From NCBI RefSeq assembly GCF_000378345.1, contig NZ_KB899545.1, positions 310,001 through 374,000 on the forward strand: DNA of 64,000 nt, given 5' to 3'. How positions within the stretch are numbered: position 1 is the stretch's first letter; each line of letters begins with the position of its first letter. Origin of the DNA: Hirschia maritima DSM 19733 (GTDB taxonomy: Bacteria; Pseudomonadota; Alphaproteobacteria; Caulobacterales; Hyphomonadaceae). This document shows positions 41,890-49,303 of the stretch, piece after piece. Below the pieces are notes generated by a model that was not told where the DNA came from, did no database searches, and saw nothing but the letters and a program-made list of their open reading frames with translations. The position numbers were made by a program, and so were the translations under genes.

Positions 41890-42528
41890 ATGATATTGTG
41901 TGAGGCCAAAGCTCGGCTTATGAGTTCTTTGTTGAAAGTTTACCTGGAAAATAAAGACAGTCTTCGTAGGTTTTTACGAAGATACTTTAGTCGTATTCAA
42001 GATATCGAAGACATCTCACAAGAAGCTTTTCTTCGAAGTTTTGTCGCCAATACAAAATCCAAAATCACAGCACCTAGGGCCTTCTTGTTTCAGACTGCCA
42101 AAAACCTTGCTTTGAACGAATTGGCTAAGAAAACTAATTCAATCACTCAGAATGTAGATGATTTTAGCAAGCTACCAATGGAGTTGGACCGCAGTCACGT
42201 TGGTGCAGATGAAGAATATGCTTCTAAGCAAAAACTAGTTGCGTTTTCTGAAGCTGTTTCAAATCTTCCCCCTCAATGCCAAAGGGTGTTTGTACTTCGG
42301 AAAATTGAGGGGCTTAGAGTTAAAGAGATTGCCGCAAAGCTGGAGATTTCAGTAAGTGCAGTAGAAAAGCACATCGCGAACGGCTTGATAAAGTGCGATG
42401 AATACCTGAGAGAAAAAGGGTATGAACCTGCGGATTTTGGTCGGTCAGATAAGAAAAAAATTATAAAAATAGATACTATACAAACGGGGAGCAAAATACA
42501 GAATTCCGAAGGAAATAATGATGGCTGA
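41890..42528 (+). CDS. ECF-type RNA polymerase sigma factor (FecI-like)
   Basis: 212 residues from 41890; the ATG at 41920 (MSSLLKVYL) is an equal alternative and neither has a clear Shine-Dalgarno. Sigma region 2 contains 'LRRFLRRYFSRIQDIEDISQEAFLRSF', and region 4 contains 'FSEAVSNLPPQCQRVFVLRKIEGLRVKEIAAKLEISVSAVEKHIANGLIKC'. It overlaps FecR by 8 nt. With FecR and the STN receptor it forms a cell-surface signalling trio, in which occupied receptor frees the sigma factor to transcribe uptake genes. Confidence 0.85.
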   Translation: MILCEAKARLMSSLLKVYLENKDSLRRFLRRYFSRIQDIEDISQEAFLRSFVANTKSKITAPRAFLFQTAKNLALNELAKKTNSITQNVDDFSKLPMELDRSHVGADEEYASKQKLVAFSEAVSNLPPQCQRVFVLRKIEGLRVKEIAAKLEISVSAVEKHIANGLIKCDEYLREKGYEPADFGRSDKKKIIKIDTIQTGSKIQNSEGNNDG

Positions 42529-43591
42529 TAACTCCCGTATATTGTCGTTTCCTGACAAGGATAGAATTAAACAAGAGGCAGCTACTTGGGTAGCTAAGTG
42601 TGAAACTCGTCCATTAAAACCTGAGCAGTATGATGAGTTAGGTGCTTGGTTGTCTTTGAGTCCAACCCATAAGGATGAGTTTGAAAACCTAGCAGCTTTA
42701 TGGGGCCAATTAGATATACTGGATGAATTGAACTATTTTGAGGAATTGCAAGAGAAAACTCCAATTCTTTCAAGGGTTACAAGTATAACAAGATGGGAAG
42801 CTAGAAGTCTTATTGCTGCGGCGGCTGTATTGTTTTGTGTTGGTTTGCTGTTCTCCAGCAGTATTGTACTCGGTTCTGACGGTGTGACGGTTTTGGATAA
42901 AGAAATTTATTCAACGCAATTGGGCGAACAAGAAAGTGTCGTTTTAGCAGATGGAACGAGCGTAACTCTCAATACGGATAGTGAGATTGAGGTTGTTTAT
43001 TCAATAGATAAGCGTGATGTATACTTAAAAAAAGGAGAAGCCCATTTTGATGTAGCCTCAGATGCATCAAAGCCCTTTTCAGTTCGGACCCATGAAGGGA
43101 TTGTGCGGGCTGTTGGAACGGAGTTTTCGGTTCGTCTTGCTGCAGAAGCAGTAGAAGTTATCGTTTCTGAAGGGCGAGTGGAGTTGTTACCTAATCTCAC
43201 TTTCGATGATGTTCCGACGAATAGCGCAATTACTGTTGCTAAAGAAAAATTGGAATTAGCGGCTGGAGATACTGCTCGATTTGTGAACACCCGTGCTGAG
43301 CTTTTGTTGCCGCTCTCCGAAACAGAGCTGAATCGCAAGTTGTCGTGGCGTCGTGGCCTGTTGGCTTTCGCTGGCGATCCATTGCGGGAAGTTGTGGATG
43401 AGGTGAGTAGATATACAGACGTTGAAATCGTGTTTGTTGATAGTGATTTGGAGCAGCTTCCTATCGGTGGGTATTTTAAAGCAGGTGAGGTCGAGGGGTT
43501 GCTAGAAGCCGTAGAGCAGACTTTCGATGTTGAGGTGGAACGGAAAGTTGATGGCTCTATTTATCTTTATTCTACAAAATTCACAGAATAA
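42521..43591 (+). CDS. FecR-family anti-sigma/transmembrane sensor
   Basis: 356 residues. Cytoplasmic part with 'TWVAKCETRPLKPEQYDELGAWLSLSPTHKDEFENLAALWGQL' (DUF4880-like), one membrane segment (LIAAAAVLFCVGLLFSSSIV), and a periplasmic FecR domain with 'LADGTSVTLNTDSEIEVVYSIDKRDVYLKKGEAHFDVASDASKPFSVRTHEGIVRAVGTEFSVR'. A late 'VDEVSRYTDVEIVFVDSDLEQLPIGGYF' fits the C-terminal domain. The second of two adjacent ATG codons has the better spacing from AAGGA. It sits between sigma factor and receptor. Confidence 0.88.
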   Translation: MADNSRILSFPDKDRIKQEAATWVAKCETRPLKPEQYDELGAWLSLSPTHKDEFENLAALWGQLDILDELNYFEELQEKTPILSRVTSITRWEARSLIAAAAVLFCVGLLFSSSIVLGSDGVTVLDKEIYSTQLGEQESVVLADGTSVTLNTDSEIEVVYSIDKRDVYLKKGEAHFDVASDASKPFSVRTHEGIVRAVGTEFSVRLAAEAVEVIVSEGRVELLPNLTFDDVPTNSAITVAKEKLELAAGDTARFVNTRAELLLPLSETELNRKLSWRRGLLAFAGDPLREVVDEVSRYTDVEIVFVDSDLEQLPIGGYFKAGEVEGLLEAVEQTFDVEVERKVDGSIYLYSTKFTE

Positions 43592-43635
43592 AATATCCAT
43601 TTAAAACAAATGCATAACGGAGTTGTTTATTGGAT

Positions 43636-43647
43636 ATAGTATACAAT
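43636..43647. promoter_or_regulatory. ATAGTATACAAT, one-mismatch copy of the ATTGTATACAAT palindrome
   Basis: It lies 102 nt before the TonB receptor ATG, after FecR. It shares 11 of 12 bases with the perfect copies upstream of the molybdenum hydroxylase and agarase. Confidence 0.45.
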
Positions 43648-43748
43648 ATCCTTGTAATTTTATGAAAAAGACTACAAACTGGGGTGGGGATAACGAATAT
43701 CCGACTGTCTAACAACTAGACTGCAAATAAAAGAAGCAGCGGACAAAA

Positions 43749-46700
43749 ATGAAACCAGTTTTAGGATGGGGAAACGCCAATAGAGATCGCTCTGCTTTAG
43801 TATCAATTTTGAGCTGTGCGATTCTTTCTACTAGCAACTTGGCTTACGCTGAGGATGCAAAGTCAGCACGGCATGAGTTTGATATTGAGGCTACCAGTCT
43901 TGCAGCATCAATGGAAAACTTCGTTGCTCAGTCGGGCGTTCAATTAATTTTTCCTTATGAATTGGCGAATTTGACAGGGTTAAATCCCGTCGAAGGGCAT
44001 TACACAGTCCGTGAAGCATTGGAGATTATCTTCGAGGGCACTTCTTTTTCTGCAGGTCTAACATCTAGCGGGATCGTAACGGTCTCGCGGATTAAACAAG
44101 TAGAACGGGAGGAGACCGACATGAAAGATGTTGAGTTGAAAAAACTACTTCTTGCTGGTGTTGCATCAGCGGTAATAGGAACGGGGAATGCGGCGGCGCA
44201 AGAGGTTGAGCCAGCCGAAGTCGTAGCTGAAGAGGATAAACGTTTAGATACCATCGTGGTTACAGGTATTCGTAGCTCACTGAGAAACGCAATGGATATC
44301 AAGCGTTCATCTCAGGGGGTTGTCGATGCGATCTCCGCTGAAGATATAGGTAAGTTTCCAGACACTAACCTTGCTGAATCACTTCAACGGATTACGGGTG
44401 TATCAATTGATCGTTCAAACAATGAAGGTAACCAAGTAACAGTTCGCGGTTTTGGGCCAAGCTTTAACCTGGTGACTTTGAATGGCCGTCAAATGCCTCG
44501 TTCATCTTCATTATTGTCTGATGGTATCCCAAGAAGTTTCAACTTTAGAGAATTGTCTTCAGAGCTCGTATCAGGTGTTGAAGTATATAAAACCGGCCGT
44601 GCGGATGTTGATTCAGGTGGTATTGGTTCCTCGATAAATGTAAAAACCGCTCGTCCATTTGACTATGATGGCTTTACTGCGTTCGGAAGCGTTAAAGGTA
44701 TTATTGATACTAGCGTTGAAAGTGGAGATGACATTACTCCTGAAATTTCTGGTCTTGTTAGTCACACCTTTGCAAATGATAAAGTGGGTGTGTTGTTAGC
44801 GCTGTCTCATTCCGACAGAGATAGCCACAGAGATCGTGCGGGAACACAAGGTTGGGTTCGCAATCGAGGGCAGAATATAGACACTAGCAATATTGATAAT
44901 GGAACTGGATCTTGGTGGGCACCATGGACCGCTGATTTAGATTCATGGAACACCGAACGTACGCGTCAAAATGGTCAACTTGTTCTTCAGTTTGCACCAA
45001 CTGACCGCATTGAGGCGACAGTCGATTATACTGCCACACGTTTTGAACAAACTACTGAGATGAATCGTCAGAGCCTCTGGTTTGACTCTCCAACAGGGAC
45101 GCCAGACGCAAATGGTACATTGGTAAACCCGATTGAGGTTACGGATGAACTGAATTTCTGGGCTTGGCAGTTTTATGAAAAAATAGAAAATGATTCTATC
45201 GGTTTGAACCTTGAGTGGCAGGCCACTGACACGCTGTCATTTGAGTTGGATGTCCACGATTCAACTTCCAAGTCTAATCCTGATGGTGTGACCTCTGAAC
45301 GTTTGGCCAACTTGGCAAACCCAGGAAAAGTTGTTGATTATACTGCAGACTTCTCCGGCGATATTCCTGTTGTTAATGTAGATGATTCTGCATTGGCAGG
45401 TGGTGCGTATAATCCAGCTAACATTATTGCAGACTTGTTCCAGACCCGCGGTTATCAGATCGAAAACAATGTTCAGCAGGTCAAGTTGGCAGGTCAATGG
45501 GAGAATGCAGGAACTGGCGCTCTAACGGCGGTAAACTTTGGTGTTCAATCAACAAAATACCAAGTTGATACAAAACAGTTTGGTACATTTGCCTTTGTAA
45601 CAGACCTTGATATTTCAGGTTTGGGGCTAACATTCAATGAAACAGGCGATGCCCTGGATGAATTTGGCAATGCATCAACACTATTCCCATTCATTCCTCA
45701 GTATTCCGCTAATGGTTTCATCAATTTGACGCAAGACCAGGACTTGTTCTTTCAAAACGCACCAAGTTTGAACGGTGTTGAGGAAAAAACTTTGGCCATG
45801 TATTTCAGCGCGGATTTCGAAACTGAATTCAACGGAATGGGTATTTCTGCAAACGCCGGTGTTCGTTTCGAGGACACTGATGTAACAGCGTATTCGGTTC
45901 AGCCTGCGATTGAGAACTTGCAATATTGGCATGAAGAAGAAATTCAGCTTGTAACCGGTGCAGATGTTGCTCAATCTTTGAGTGGTGGATACAAACGTAT
46001 TTTGCCAAACTTTGATGTAAAAGCAGATATCTTAGACAACCTTGTTGGTCGATTCTCCTATAGCAGAACTATGACGCGTAGTGGTCTGGGGAACATGTTC
46101 CCATCAACGACAATTACACAACGTCGCCCAGGTGATACATTTAGGGCTAGCCAAGGTAACCCTGGATTGTTGCCTTATGAGTCTGACAATTTCGATGTAT
46201 CATTGGAATACTACTATGGTGATGCGAGTTATGTGTCGGCTGGTTACTTCCAGAAATACGTGGATAACTTTATTGGTCAATCGACTGAAATTCGTACGAT
46301 TGCTGATGCAGCAGGTAACCCTCTGACAGATCCAAGTGTTGATCCGGGTGTTGGGTGTCCTAGTGATGTTATTCCAACAGCGGCGTGTTTGAACCGTCCT
46401 GATCAGCCGGTTATCAATTTTGAAACCACGACAACGACAAACCAAGGTTCCGCTGAGGTTGATGGTTGGGAACTTAACGTGCAACACATGTTTGGTGCCA
46501 CTGGTTTTGGTGCTATTGCCAACGTAACCATTGTAAACGCCGATGTCGCTTATGACATTCGTCAAATTGGTGGAAACCGCGCACTCACCGGATTGAGTGA
46601 CTCCGCAAATGTCGTGGCATTCTATGATAAAAATGGTTTGCAAGCTCGTATTGCGTATAACTGGCGTGATGAGTTTTTGTTAAGTGGTGGAAATGAGCCA

Positions 46701-46892
46701 ACATTTACAGAGGCTTACGGGCAAATTGATGCAAACGCCAGCTATGAAATAAATGACCATTTCACAGTGTTTGTTGAGGGATTGAACCTGACCAACGAAA
46801 CTGTTCGTCGTCATGGTCGTTATTCAGAGCAGCTAATTGATGCTGAACAATACGGAGCACGTTTCAATGTTGGTGTGCGTGCCAAGTTCTAG
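43749..46892 (+). CDS. STN-domain TonB-dependent receptor (TonB-Xanth-Caul type)
   Basis: 1047 residues. Signal peptide ending ...SNLAYAED; STN domain at about 40-115 ('HEFDIEATSLAASMENFVAQSGVQLIFPYEL'). Then 'MKDVELKKLLLAGVASAVIGTGNAAAQ' at residue 125 looks like a second signal sequence. The plug begins 'IVVTGIRSSLRNAMDIKRSSQGVVDAISAEDIGKFPDTNLAESLQRITGVSIDRSNNEGNQVTVRGFGP' and a beta-barrel ends in a Phe (RFNVGVRAKF), as needed for outer-membrane assembly. This family imports complex carbohydrates; the STN domain signals to the FecR/sigma pair upstream. ATG 44121 has a strong Shine-Dalgarno (GGAGGAG, 6-nt spacer), so a shorter STN-free form may also be made. Confidence 0.88.
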   Translation: MKPVLGWGNANRDRSALVSILSCAILSTSNLAYAEDAKSARHEFDIEATSLAASMENFVAQSGVQLIFPYELANLTGLNPVEGHYTVREALEIIFEGTSFSAGLTSSGIVTVSRIKQVEREETDMKDVELKKLLLAGVASAVIGTGNAAAQEVEPAEVVAEEDKRLDTIVVTGIRSSLRNAMDIKRSSQGVVDAISAEDIGKFPDTNLAESLQRITGVSIDRSNNEGNQVTVRGFGPSFNLVTLNGRQMPRSSSLLSDGIPRSFNFRELSSELVSGVEVYKTGRADVDSGGIGSSINVKTARPFDYDGFTAFGSVKGIIDTSVESGDDITPEISGLVSHTFANDKVGVLLALSHSDRDSHRDRAGTQGWVRNRGQNIDTSNIDNGTGSWWAPWTADLDSWNTERTRQNGQLVLQFAPTDRIEATVDYTATRFEQTTEMNRQSLWFDSPTGTPDANGTLVNPIEVTDELNFWAWQFYEKIENDSIGLNLEWQATDTLSFELDVHDSTSKSNPDGVTSERLANLANPGKVVDYTADFSGDIPVVNVDDSALAGGAYNPANIIADLFQTRGYQIENNVQQVKLAGQWENAGTGALTAVNFGVQSTKYQVDTKQFGTFAFVTDLDISGLGLTFNETGDALDEFGNASTLFPFIPQYSANGFINLTQDQDLFFQNAPSLNGVEEKTLAMYFSADFETEFNGMGISANAGVRFEDTDVTAYSVQPAIENLQYWHEEEIQLVTGADVAQSLSGGYKRILPNFDVKADILDNLVGRFSYSRTMTRSGLGNMFPSTTITQRRPGDTFRASQGNPGLLPYESDNFDVSLEYYYGDASYVSAGYFQKYVDNFIGQSTEIRTIADAAGNPLTDPSVDPGVGCPSDVIPTAACLNRPDQPVINFETTTTTNQGSAEVDGWELNVQHMFGATGFGAIANVTIVNADVAYDIRQIGGNRALTGLSDSANVVAFYDKNGLQARIAYNWRDEFLLSGGNEPTFTEAYGQIDANASYEINDHFTVFVEGLNLTNETVRRHGRYSEQLIDAEQYGARFNVGVRAKF

Positions 46893-46916
46893 TTAGTTAA
46901 ATACTATCTATATATC

Positions 46917-46950
46917 GAAGGTCACCAATTAATTGGTGACCTTCATTTGT
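46917..46950 (+). terminator. Terminator downstream of the TonB receptor
   Basis: A 12-bp perfect stem (GAAGGTCACCAA, 46917-46928, with TTGGTGACCTTC, 46933-46944), loop TTAA, followed by ATTTGTTTC. The T tract is weak but the hairpin is strong. Confidence 0.7.
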
Positions 46951-46999
46951 TTCTCTATGAATTCTATTGTTTAGTCTGTGGCTTGAAGGAGGGTGTAAA

Positions 47000-48550
47000 A
47001 TGGATCCTGTGACTTCAATTGTTATTGTTGGTGGTGGTTCGGCTGGTTGGATCACTGCAGGTACGCTTGCTGCACGATTAAAAACCGAGCGAGAACGCAA
47101 TTCTTATAAAGTTACTTTGGTGGAGAGCCCCAATACTCCTATAATTGGTGTGGGAGAGGGGACGTGGCCCACTATGCGTTCTACTCTACGAAAAATGGGT
47201 GTCCGCGAGACTGACTTTATCAAGGAGTGCTCAGCTTCTTTTAAGCAAGGTGCGAAGTTCGTAAATTGGCATAAGGGTGACGGTGATGCATATTATCACC
47301 CCCTTATGTTGCCCCAAGCATATTTTGAACAAAACCTTGCTCCGCATTGGCCGGATTTGGCTGGGAATTTAAGTTTTTCAGAAGCTGTGTGTCCGCAAGA
47401 TTTTTTGTGTGAGCAGGGTCTTGCTCCAAAATTGATAACAACTCCCGAATACGGACATGTTGCAAACTACGCGTATCATTTGGATGCCGGAGCGTTTGCG
47501 GAATTTTTGAAAAATCATTGCGTTGAGAAATTAGGCGTAAACCATATTTTAGATGACGTAGTTGCCGTGAAATCGAAAGAAGACGGTGATATTCAGTCAG
47601 TGATATCTCAAAATGCCGGAGAAATTCTGGGTGATCTATTTATAGATTGCACTGGCTTTAGGTCACTTTTGCTGGGCGGTCATTATGATGTGCCGTTCAA
47701 GTCCTGTAAGGAAGTGTTATTCATTGATACCGCCCTGGCCGTACAACTTCCTTATGAAGACAATAATGCTCCTATCGCCTCCCATACAATTTCAACAGCT
47801 CAGAATGCAGGTTGGATTTGGGATATTGGATTGCAAAACAGACGTGGAGTTGGACATGTGTATTCAAGTGACCACTTATCCGAAGACAAGGCCGTATCTA
47901 ATCTAAAGGATTATGTTGGGCAAACCCACCCAGAGGCTGCAGCAGAAGATTATCGGAAAATAGATATAAATCCCGGCCATCGAACACAGTTTTGGAAACG
48001 AAATTGCGTAGCTGTTGGAATGGCTGCAGGGTTTCTAGAACCTTTGGAAGCTTCAGCGCTGTTATTGATCGAAATATCTGCAAACATGATTGCGGAACAA
48101 TTGCCTGCTAATCGTCTTGCAATGGAGGTTGTTTCTAAGAGGTTTAATGAAACTTTCCTTTATCGCTGGGAAAGAATAATCGATTTTCTGAAACTGCATT
48201 ACATAGCCAGTGAACGTACGGATCATTCGTTTTGGAAAGACAATAGGAAAAAAGAAACAATTCCTGATAGTCTTTTGGAATTAATGGATTTTTGGAAATA
48301 CCAACCACCCTGGCATGATGATTTTGATCGGGCGGTAGAGGTTTTCCCAGCCGCAAGTTATCAGTACGTTCTTTATGGCATGGGGTTTAAAACTGAGGTC
48401 AACCCATTGGGATATTCAGACGCTGCTCGAAATGCAGCTATGCAGGCTTTTGAAGAAAATGCGAAAATGGCAAAGGATTTGCTTCGTAAACTCCCAAGCA
48501 ATAGAGAATTGCTAGATAAGATTACAACACACGGACTTCAACGCGTGTAG
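47000..48550 (+). CDS. Tryptophan-halogenase-like flavoprotein
   Basis: 516 residues from 47000, where GGAGG lies 7 nt upstream. FAD motif IVGGGSAGWITAGTLAA, then 'IGVGEGTWPTMRSTLRKMG', the conserved Lys in 'FKQGAKFVNWHKGD' (the position of the catalytic Lys in flavin halogenases), and 'GWIWDIGLQNRRG', a variant of the W-x-W-x-I motif with Gly instead of Pro. Such genes often accompany TonB-Xanth-Caul receptors and SapC-like genes in marine carbohydrate loci, where their chemistry is not settled. Neighbours support that setting. Confidence 0.78.
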   Translation: MDPVTSIVIVGGGSAGWITAGTLAARLKTERERNSYKVTLVESPNTPIIGVGEGTWPTMRSTLRKMGVRETDFIKECSASFKQGAKFVNWHKGDGDAYYHPLMLPQAYFEQNLAPHWPDLAGNLSFSEAVCPQDFLCEQGLAPKLITTPEYGHVANYAYHLDAGAFAEFLKNHCVEKLGVNHILDDVVAVKSKEDGDIQSVISQNAGEILGDLFIDCTGFRSLLLGGHYDVPFKSCKEVLFIDTALAVQLPYEDNNAPIASHTISTAQNAGWIWDIGLQNRRGVGHVYSSDHLSEDKAVSNLKDYVGQTHPEAAAEDYRKIDINPGHRTQFWKRNCVAVGMAAGFLEPLEASALLLIEISANMIAEQLPANRLAMEVVSKRFNETFLYRWERIIDFLKLHYIASERTDHSFWKDNRKKETIPDSLLELMDFWKYQPPWHDDFDRAVEVFPAASYQYVLYGMGFKTEVNPLGYSDAARNAAMQAFEENAKMAKDLLRKLPSNRELLDKITTHGLQRV

Positions 48551-48580
48551 TTGAGATGGAAATTATTCGAGGAAACAGGC

Positions 48581-49303
48581 ATGTCCAAATTGGAAATTCT
48601 TAACAATGAAAAGCACCGTGATGTAAAAATTATTACAGACCGAGGAAGTGCCTTTGGAGAAAACGCAAATGTGATCCCTGCTTTGGTTAATGAAATGGGA
48701 GCGTTGGTTTTAGATTTTCCGGTCTGTTTGTTAAAAGACCCAGAAAATGGAAATTTTGGACTCCACATTTTCCTCGGATTTGAGCCGGATGAAAATTTAT
48801 TCCTAGATGGAAAAAACTGGAAATCATCTCACATTCCAGCACATGTACGTCGCCAGCCATTCAGAGTTGGGTTTTCCCAAGATGAAGAAGGAAAAACGCG
48901 CTCGGCTTTGATCACATTGGATGTTGAAAGTAAGCGGGTGAATAGCCAACTGGGGGAGCGTATATTTGATGAGGATGGCAACAGGACTCCTTTTCTTATG
49001 GGGATGGAGCAATTGTTAAATGATGTATTACGAGGCGAGGAGGCATCTCAGGCTTTTGTTCAGTTGCTGGTAGACAATGATTTGGTCGAACCCGTCCAGT
49101 TAAAGGCTGAGTTTGAAGAGGGACAGTCAAAGACATTTGATGGACTGTACACTGTAAATGATTCTAAATTTGCAGATTTATCAACTAAGAGACTTAATGA
49201 ATTTAACAAGAACGGTGTGCTGAAGGTTTGTCATCAGATGACGACCAGTCTTGGGCATATTCGAAAAATGATTGAATGGAAGAAAAATAAAGTAAGCGGC
49301 TGA
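48581..49303 (+). CDS. SapC-like protein
   Basis: 240 residues, SapC family. 'ALVNEMGALVLDFPVCLLKDPENGNFGLHIFLGFEPDENLFLDGKNWKSSHIPAHVRRQPFRVGF' and 'EDGNRTPFLMGMEQLLNDVLRGEEASQAFVQLLVDNDLVEPVQL' are typical. GAGGA lies 10 nt before the ATG. It follows the halogenase-like gene by 30 nt. In many proteobacteria SapC-like genes are grouped with TonB receptors and halogenase-like genes in carbohydrate loci; reaction unknown. Confidence 0.8.
   Translation: MSKLEILNNEKHRDVKIITDRGSAFGENANVIPALVNEMGALVLDFPVCLLKDPENGNFGLHIFLGFEPDENLFLDGKNWKSSHIPAHVRRQPFRVGFSQDEEGKTRSALITLDVESKRVNSQLGERIFDEDGNRTPFLMGMEQLLNDVLRGEEASQAFVQLLVDNDLVEPVQLKAEFEEGQSKTFDGLYTVNDSKFADLSTKRLNEFNKNGVLKVCHQMTTSLGHIRKMIEWKKNKVSG

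Follow-up and report, generated by a model that had tools for sequence, protein, structure and literature searches.

The gene analysed here lies in a window of 64,000 nucleotides from Hirschia maritima DSM 19733 (contig NZ_KB899545.1, positions 310,001 to 374,000), to which all coordinates refer; all features described are on the + strand. Its open reading frame (43749..46892) encodes 1047 residues, of which residues 166-1047 belong to the TonB-Xanth-Caul receptor family TIGR01782 (E 2.2e-189; 631.7 bits against an NCBIfam cut-off of 310). Pfam places a TonB-dependent receptor plug domain at 44301..44624 (Plug, 7.7e-18) and a beta-barrel domain at 45174..46790 (TonB_dep_Rec_b-barrel, 3.4e-23), both above cut-off, as required of a TonB-dependent transducer. 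Directly upstream are a FecI-like ECF sigma factor gene (41890..42528; Pfam Sigma70_r2 and r4_2, and NCBIfam sigma70-ECF above cut-off) and, overlapping it, a FecR-like anti-sigma factor gene (42518..43591; Pfam FecR, 3.5e-23, and FecR_C; NCBIfam PRK09774 FecR, 1.5e-31, below its cut-off). The FecI/FecR neighbourhood of a transducer (41890-43591) is thus present. Downstream, the receptor gene is followed by genes for a tryptophan-halogenase-like flavoprotein (46967..48550; Pfam, 2.8e-119) and a SapC-family protein (48551..49303; Pfam SapC, 1e-58).

Residues 1-34 of the long open reading frame resemble a signal peptide (SP1; 43749..43850). This segment ends in LVSILSCAILSTSNLAYA followed by ED, and the probable cut, between AYA and ED, is our own reading of the sequence and its hydropathy. 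Behind it, residues 41-112 (43869..44084) were assigned to an STN signalling domain by profile and fold comparison. The Pfam STN model on its own gives the protein only 18 bits, short of its cut-off of 28.4, and the NCBIfam FecA model matches residues 20-119 at 7.2e-11, yet far under its cut-off. A profile of the STN family compared with PDB domains retrieved the signalling domains of PupA (best E 1.3e-12), PupB, FpvA, HasR, and FecA. In addition, a structure model of the STN domain together with the second signal-like segment described below (best of five, mean pLDDT 73.4) had PupR-bound PupB and FpvA as its best Foldseek matches. An N-terminal STN domain behind a signal peptide, as expected of a transducer, is therefore supported by the profile, the modeled fold, the sequence, and its hydropathy, with Pfam alone sub-threshold.

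A second set of start signals lies in frame between the STN and plug domains. The ATG at 44121 corresponds to residue 125 and is preceded by the Shine-Dalgarno (SD) sequence GGGAGGAG (44107..44114), whose GGAGGAG part occupies 44108-44114 and is separated from the ATG by a spacer of 6 nt (44115-44120). The ATG opens a 26-residue signal-peptide-like segment (SP2; 44121..44198) that reads MKDVELKKLLLAGVASAVIGTGNAAA followed by QE, with a probable cut between NAAA and QE, again our own reading; similar segments occur in relatives. The inferred product of this start is a short form of 923 residues without the STN domain (44121..46892). Anti-SD pairing at 44121 reaches -10.3 kcal/mol, the strongest among the 55 in-frame ATG, GTG, and TTG codons within the gene, the next being -5.6, whereas the first start of the gene has a weak SD of -3.2 kcal/mol. 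RNA folding around the internal SD was no better than in shuffled sequences (z -0.28), with possible partial pairing to an upstream GGUCUC. A preliminary description of the gene had reported an ATG at 44121 with GGAGGAG six bases upstream, encoding a signal-like segment after the STN domain of a protein with its own signal at residue 1, and each of these statements held exactly.

To place this arrangement among its relatives, we compared receptors with and without an STN domain. Relatives that lack STN, with identities of up to 63%, carry their N-terminal signal peptide at the position where SP2 sits in the H. maritima gene. The STN-bearing relatives found first were L002 and L019, both from the H. 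maritima genome itself, L064 (Arenicella), L066, L072 (Pseudoalteromonas), L073 (Cellvibrionaceae), and L074 (Rheinheimera). In all of them the region separating STN from plug contains a second signal-like segment together with a start codon, which is ATG except in L073, where it is GTG. L019 and some other SP2-bearing genes resemble other receptor subfamilies, as judged from plug sequences only and without a family search. A profile search of the H. maritima genome gave four STN matches (E up to 0.01), the fourth of which (L006/L137) lacks a second signal segment.

A first sample of 175 distinct STN open reading frames (E up to 1e-6 and long enough) was drawn from these early loci, from STN-profile searches of the H. 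maritima genome, of its class and order, of seven genomes behind earlier loci, and of the family of the L072 genome, and from 80 stretches taken by place. As it covers only part of the listed matches, mostly the top ones, the shares given below are not population rates. Short STN frames were excluded (L302, L305, L321, L322, and L325 here, and L341 in the second sample). SP2 was called by a strict rule blind to start codons, which demands a charge-free 12-residue window with mean hydropathy of at least 1.3, K or R just before it, and an A-x-A-like site after it; its cut-offs were fixed only after the first sample had been seen. The rule passed 79 of the 175 frames, and L271 and L316 were then removed by eye as plug-domain matches, leaving 77 SP2 genes; clustering of their receptor parts at 50% identity gave 28 clusters (29 when L316 is included). 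The second sample comprised 80 new distinct STN frames, drawn from genomes of the L073 order, a phylum-wide spread, and 40 stretches, 30 of them from the L073 order (mostly the STN-rich genomes G1121 and G1047) and 10 from genomes already listed. Here the same rule passed 28 frames, of which L345 and L350 were removed by eye, again as plug-domain matches, leaving 26. All four genes removed by eye carry a start codon, so their removal gives the claim no help.

The strict rule replaced a looser hydrophobicity rule, under which 89 of the 175 frames appeared SP2-like (61 with ATG, 20 with GTG, 2 with TTG, and 6 without a start codon). Inspection by eye rejected L147, L149, L187, L276, and L277 (no start codon) and L271 (TTG), in which the window lies in the plug domain or the protein is not a receptor. 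The sixth start-less gene under the loose rule, L268, carries a true segment without a start; the strict rule omits it too, solely because of charged residues before the cut site.

Every one of the 77 SP2 genes has an in-frame start codon within the 14 codons that precede the hydrophobic window (60 ATG, 16 GTG, and 1 TTG), and counting L268 would make this 77/78. In 2400 control windows of the same size from the receptor parts of the same genes, ATG or GTG occurred in 34%, and 55% contained no start codon. Of the 96 frames lacking SP2, 53 are without a start codon at the matching place, and the SD of the remainder averages -1.5. The second sample, scored with the fixed rule, gave a start codon in 26/26 genes (21 ATG, 3 GTG, and 2 TTG), with ATG or GTG in 24/26; among control windows, 35% contained one of the two. 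The rule chose the wrong start in L326 and probably also in L365, both of which have an ATG further upstream.

Mean SD pairing for the 77 internal starts is -6.4 kcal/mol, compared with -1.9 in control windows under the same picking rule (p 1.1e-31), and -5.4 compared with -2.2 in the second sample (p 8.9e-9). These comparisons show that the hallmarks of a dual-start gene, an in-frame start codon together with an SD stronger than chance, are met; that both proteins are produced is inferred. When the upstream codons were recoded synonymously in 79 genes, mean SD pairing fell from the observed -6.35 to -3.51 (p 7.8e-15). Likewise, glutamate in the four codons over the SD is encoded by GAG in 62 of 75 instances, compared with 33% in the same genes (p 4.7e-19), and with one gene per cluster in 22 of 29 against 39% expected (p 5.6e-5). 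The internal start is thus conserved in homologues beyond what codon usage and protein sequence would impose. Against this stand two observations: in the second sample the preference for GAG did not reach significance (9/15 versus 44%, p 0.16), and, taken singly, only 25% of the 79 genes have an SD stronger than that in 95% of their own synonymous recodings (mean rank 0.18). The p-values ignore shared descent and overstate independence; the per-cluster figures are safer, although they do not fully remove kinship. The strength of the internal SD also varies. The largest cluster averages -4.6, many of its members having an SD of just -2.9 kcal/mol, and the ordinary starts of 57 STN-less relatives, with a mean of -8.4, are stronger than the internal starts (p 4.7e-5). 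Of the 69 SP2 genes in which the first start could be scored, 53 have an internal SD stronger than even the most favourable estimate for that start, and in 2 the two are equal; 8/77 could not be scored. The best-case SD of the first start averages -3.6.

Loss of the internal start gave further insight. Among 36 related receptors, consisting of the largest cluster of 32 and four others, four lack a start codon at the conserved place, where L247 has ATA, L250 CTA, L252 TTA, and L268 GGG. On the tree of the 36 these represent four changes, of which at least three are forced by well-supported branches, and the frames remain open throughout (1088 to 1125 residues). In L247, L250, and L252 the hydrophobic core is gone along with the start. 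L268 is a partial exception, as it keeps a hydrophobic window (2.60, loose rule) without a start codon, with a proline and a glutamate now within that window or before the cut site. The hydrophobic segment therefore seems mostly to be retained only behind a start codon, which suggests a job in the internally started product, subject to the exception of L268 and to the longer branches of L247, L250, and L252 compared with most, on which general relaxation may contribute to the losses.

The outer part of the gene is retained as well. All 77 SP2 genes keep a recognizable STN domain and an open fusion frame, and all 77 have an SP1-like hydrophobic stretch before the STN domain, as do 95 of 96 frames without SP2. 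Because the frame is open, any translation of the STN domain yields the fused long form. No pair consisting of an intact STN gene and an intact SP2 receptor gene was found among the short STN frames examined. The candidates rejected as split pairs were L302 (G689:C223), whose STN and receptor occupy different frames owing to a break in the SP2 stretch, by assembly error or decay; L305, where a stop codon separates STN from the receptor and SP2 is missing; L325 and L202, both frame-broken; L409 (the same place as L341), whose STN frame is followed by no visible receptor in the available stretch; and L321 and L322, in which STN is combined with a TonB-C-like part. Where the available sequence was long enough, a FecR gene lies upstream on the same strand at 47 of 78 SP2 loci (a set that includes both false positives), versus 64/90 loci without SP2, and a FecI- or FecR-like frame occurs anywhere in the fetched stretch at 70/78 SP2 loci (false positive L316 included), versus 82/96. 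The FecI/FecR genes are divergent in L072 and downstream in L074.

SP2 is close in hydrophobicity to ordinary receptor signal peptides (2.09 versus 2.05, p 0.43), but both sets were selected by hydropathy and this is no strict test. Membrane-insertion sums are positive for SP2 in 77/77 genes but also for ordinary signal peptides in 61/61; calculated with no length correction, they decide little.

Taken together, the domains and neighbours identify the H. maritima gene as a TonB-dependent transducer that, as inferred from sequence alone, would work like genes with internal in-frame starts. We consider it likely that it represents a conserved dual-start transducer supplying few STN-bearing sensors and more STN-free transporters, although no proteomics, ribosome profiling, or expression data are available. 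Sequence comparison establishes that the internal start, SD, and SP2 co-occur far above chance, that the SP1-like stretch and the open fusion are retained, and that the internal SD is usually the stronger. That both proteins are made, that both reside in the outer membrane, and that only the long form signals is inferred. In the proposed mechanism, the weak first start would yield a small amount of the long form, comprising SP1, STN, plug, and barrel, whose STN domain would contact the FecR anti-sigma factor encoded next door and thereby control the sigma factor. The stronger internal SD and ATG in the linker would yield more of an STN-free receptor that carries its own SP2 and serves transport only. 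The resulting ratio would match few sensors to few FecR molecules while providing many transporters. SP2 within the long form may simply be passed through as a linker, or may be cut. Sensor scarcity would have a recorded reason, as signalling in Pseudomonas is reportedly inhibited by additional STN domain (PMC11637429).

The preliminary description had proposed two readings, a long form with STN signalling beside a short form for transport only, or a recent fusion of an STN gene to a receptor that kept its old start. The first is supported by the comparative evidence, with production of both forms inferred, while the second is disfavoured as a dead remnant, although a fusion may well be the origin. 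It had also named homologues lacking the internal SD and hydrophobic segment as grounds for refutation. In the first sample, 77 of 175 frames carry the start, the SD signal, and SP2 together, whereas 98 of 175 lack SP2, as do 54 of 80 in the second (the two genes removed by eye in each counted as lacking it), which shows that the device is not general to transducers.

Three rival explanations were weighed against the dual-start reading. If an STN gene had been fused in front of a receptor, the old start and signal peptide could persist merely as an unused relic. This explanation draws support from the STN-less relatives, which begin with a signal peptide exactly there and make a fusion plausible as the origin, since they start at the same place. 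The window of L268 that persists without a start codon also fits a relic, as does the distribution of SP2 on a receptor tree (FastTree, 226 receptor parts including STN-less ones, with long-branch warnings), where the label requires 27 changes, at least 21 of them forced by well-supported branches, implying many joinings or losses. Relics decay, however, and here the start, SD, and hydrophobicity persist together across 28 clusters, the SD codons are preferred over synonyms, and start and segment were lost jointly in three genes. A dead remnant does not fit this pattern, nor the start codon found in all 26 genes of the second sample, nor L268, in which the start was lost and the segment altered. 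We therefore regard a mere relic as unlikely.

Alternatively, SP2 could act mainly in the long form as a processing signal, being cut by signal peptidase or another protease to free the STN domain, as has been proposed for FoxA. In favour of this, the FoxA STN domain is reportedly cut off (PMC11637429), and SP2 contains an A-x-A-like cut site, though the SP2 rule itself requires one. This possibility leaves the start codon and SD unexplained, and of the four genes without the start, three show a decayed segment despite an open long frame. Within the long form, SP2 would insert into the membrane in the orientation opposite to that required by signal peptidase, which also counts against such processing, the insertion sums being weak evidence. 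Processing as the main role of SP2 thus appears improbable. Still less probable is that the short form alone is made, with the upstream STN frame untranslated or decaying. The weak SD of the first start (best-case mean -3.6 across SP2 genes and -3.2 in H. maritima) and the 8 of 77 first starts that could not be scored would be consistent with it. Against it are the STN domain and the preceding hydrophobic stretch in 77/77 genes, the absence of an intact split pair among the short frames examined, and the FecI- or FecR-like frames at 70 of 78 loci (L316 included).

How the dual-start arrangement arose can be addressed only tentatively. On an STN tree (FastTree, 71 columns, 173 rows, poorly resolved) the SP2 label requires 16 changes, 2 of them forced. 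The contrast with the receptor tree makes it possible that an STN cassette was repeatedly joined to receptors that kept their own start, which we offer as a reasonable lead and not as a result. A bolder and less likely reading would treat SP1, STN, ribosome-binding site, start, and SP2 as a transferable sensor cassette placed before many unrelated receptors, which would make a plain transporter into a low-dose sensor while the receptor's own start continued to supply the bulk product, with SP2 in the long form also serving as the site at which STN is released to shield FecR. As a separate observation, L258 (G657) has an STN domain, linker, and SP2 like those of the largest SP2 cluster and a receptor part falling in another cluster, a possible swap of an STN-SP2 cassette.

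The H. maritima gene shares its signal peptide, STN, plug, barrel, and nearby FecI/FecR-type genes with the transducers FecA, FpvA, PupA, PupB, FoxA, and HasR, but it adds a second start, SD, and signal peptide between STN and plug. The model transducers are not known to have a second start and signal peptide at this position. In Pseudomonas aeruginosa, the FoxA STN domain is reportedly removed by proteolysis, probably by CtpA, shielding FoxR, and is said to be dispensable for transport (PMC11637429). As with FoxA, the cell would hold the receptor both with and without STN; the separation in FoxA is post-translational, whereas in H. maritima it is predicted to arise from two translation starts. 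STN signalling is likewise uncoupled from a barrel in another FecI/FecR-type system, that of P. aeruginosa VreA (PA0674; PMC2729926), but VreA is a small stand-alone protein that has no barrel, while the H. maritima STN is in frame with its receptor. Internal in-frame starts are known in other bacterial genes, such as those for ClpB and SsaQ (cited in PMC11005335) and HrcQ (PMC8553256), where two starts of one gene likewise give two N-terminal forms. Unlike these, both predicted H. maritima forms have their own export signal, are predicted outer-membrane receptors, and differ by a signalling domain. Within TIGR01782, to which the receptor part belongs, STN-less relatives have a signal peptide at the SP2 place, and the H. 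maritima gene differs in adding SP1 and STN in front. Two-start TonB receptors with an export signal on each form were not described in the open-licence literature searched; within that scope, the new element is the combination of a transducer with an internal start and an export signal on each form.

These comparisons touch on the question of how one receptor gene can serve as both a scarce sensor and an abundant transporter. If the ratio is indeed set by two starts, the gene would offer a testable alternative to FoxA-type STN cleavage. There would also be consequences for annotation, as calling the inner start alone would drop the STN domain and hide a signalling receptor, and calling the outer start alone would hide the transporter form.

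Several further observations concern the surroundings and the wider STN repertoire. Behind the SP2-bearing receptor, a tryptophan-halogenase-like frame comes next in L066, L072, and L074 and is separated from it by one other frame in L073, as judged from the starts of the frames without a family search. Together with H. maritima (41890-49303), these loci indicate a recurring neighbourhood of FecI/FecR, receptor, and halogenase. Small STN proteins without a barrel, with a VreA-like layout, were seen in L184-L187 (G412), L321, L322, L351, and L353. In L321 and L322 a TonB-C-like tail scores slightly below the Pfam cut-off, and L184-L187, L351, and L353 look alike by eye; in G412, all 10 STN matches fall in frames of 237-395 residues. 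The genomes G1121 and G1047 (L329, L333, L380-L395, and L400-L405) carry an unusual load of signalling receptors, with 23 and 13 STN matches, respectively, at E up to 1e-10. SP2 is absent from 14 of 15 (G1121) and 6 of 9 (G1047) of their fetched STN frames, and many of the frames lacking it have short acidic linkers.
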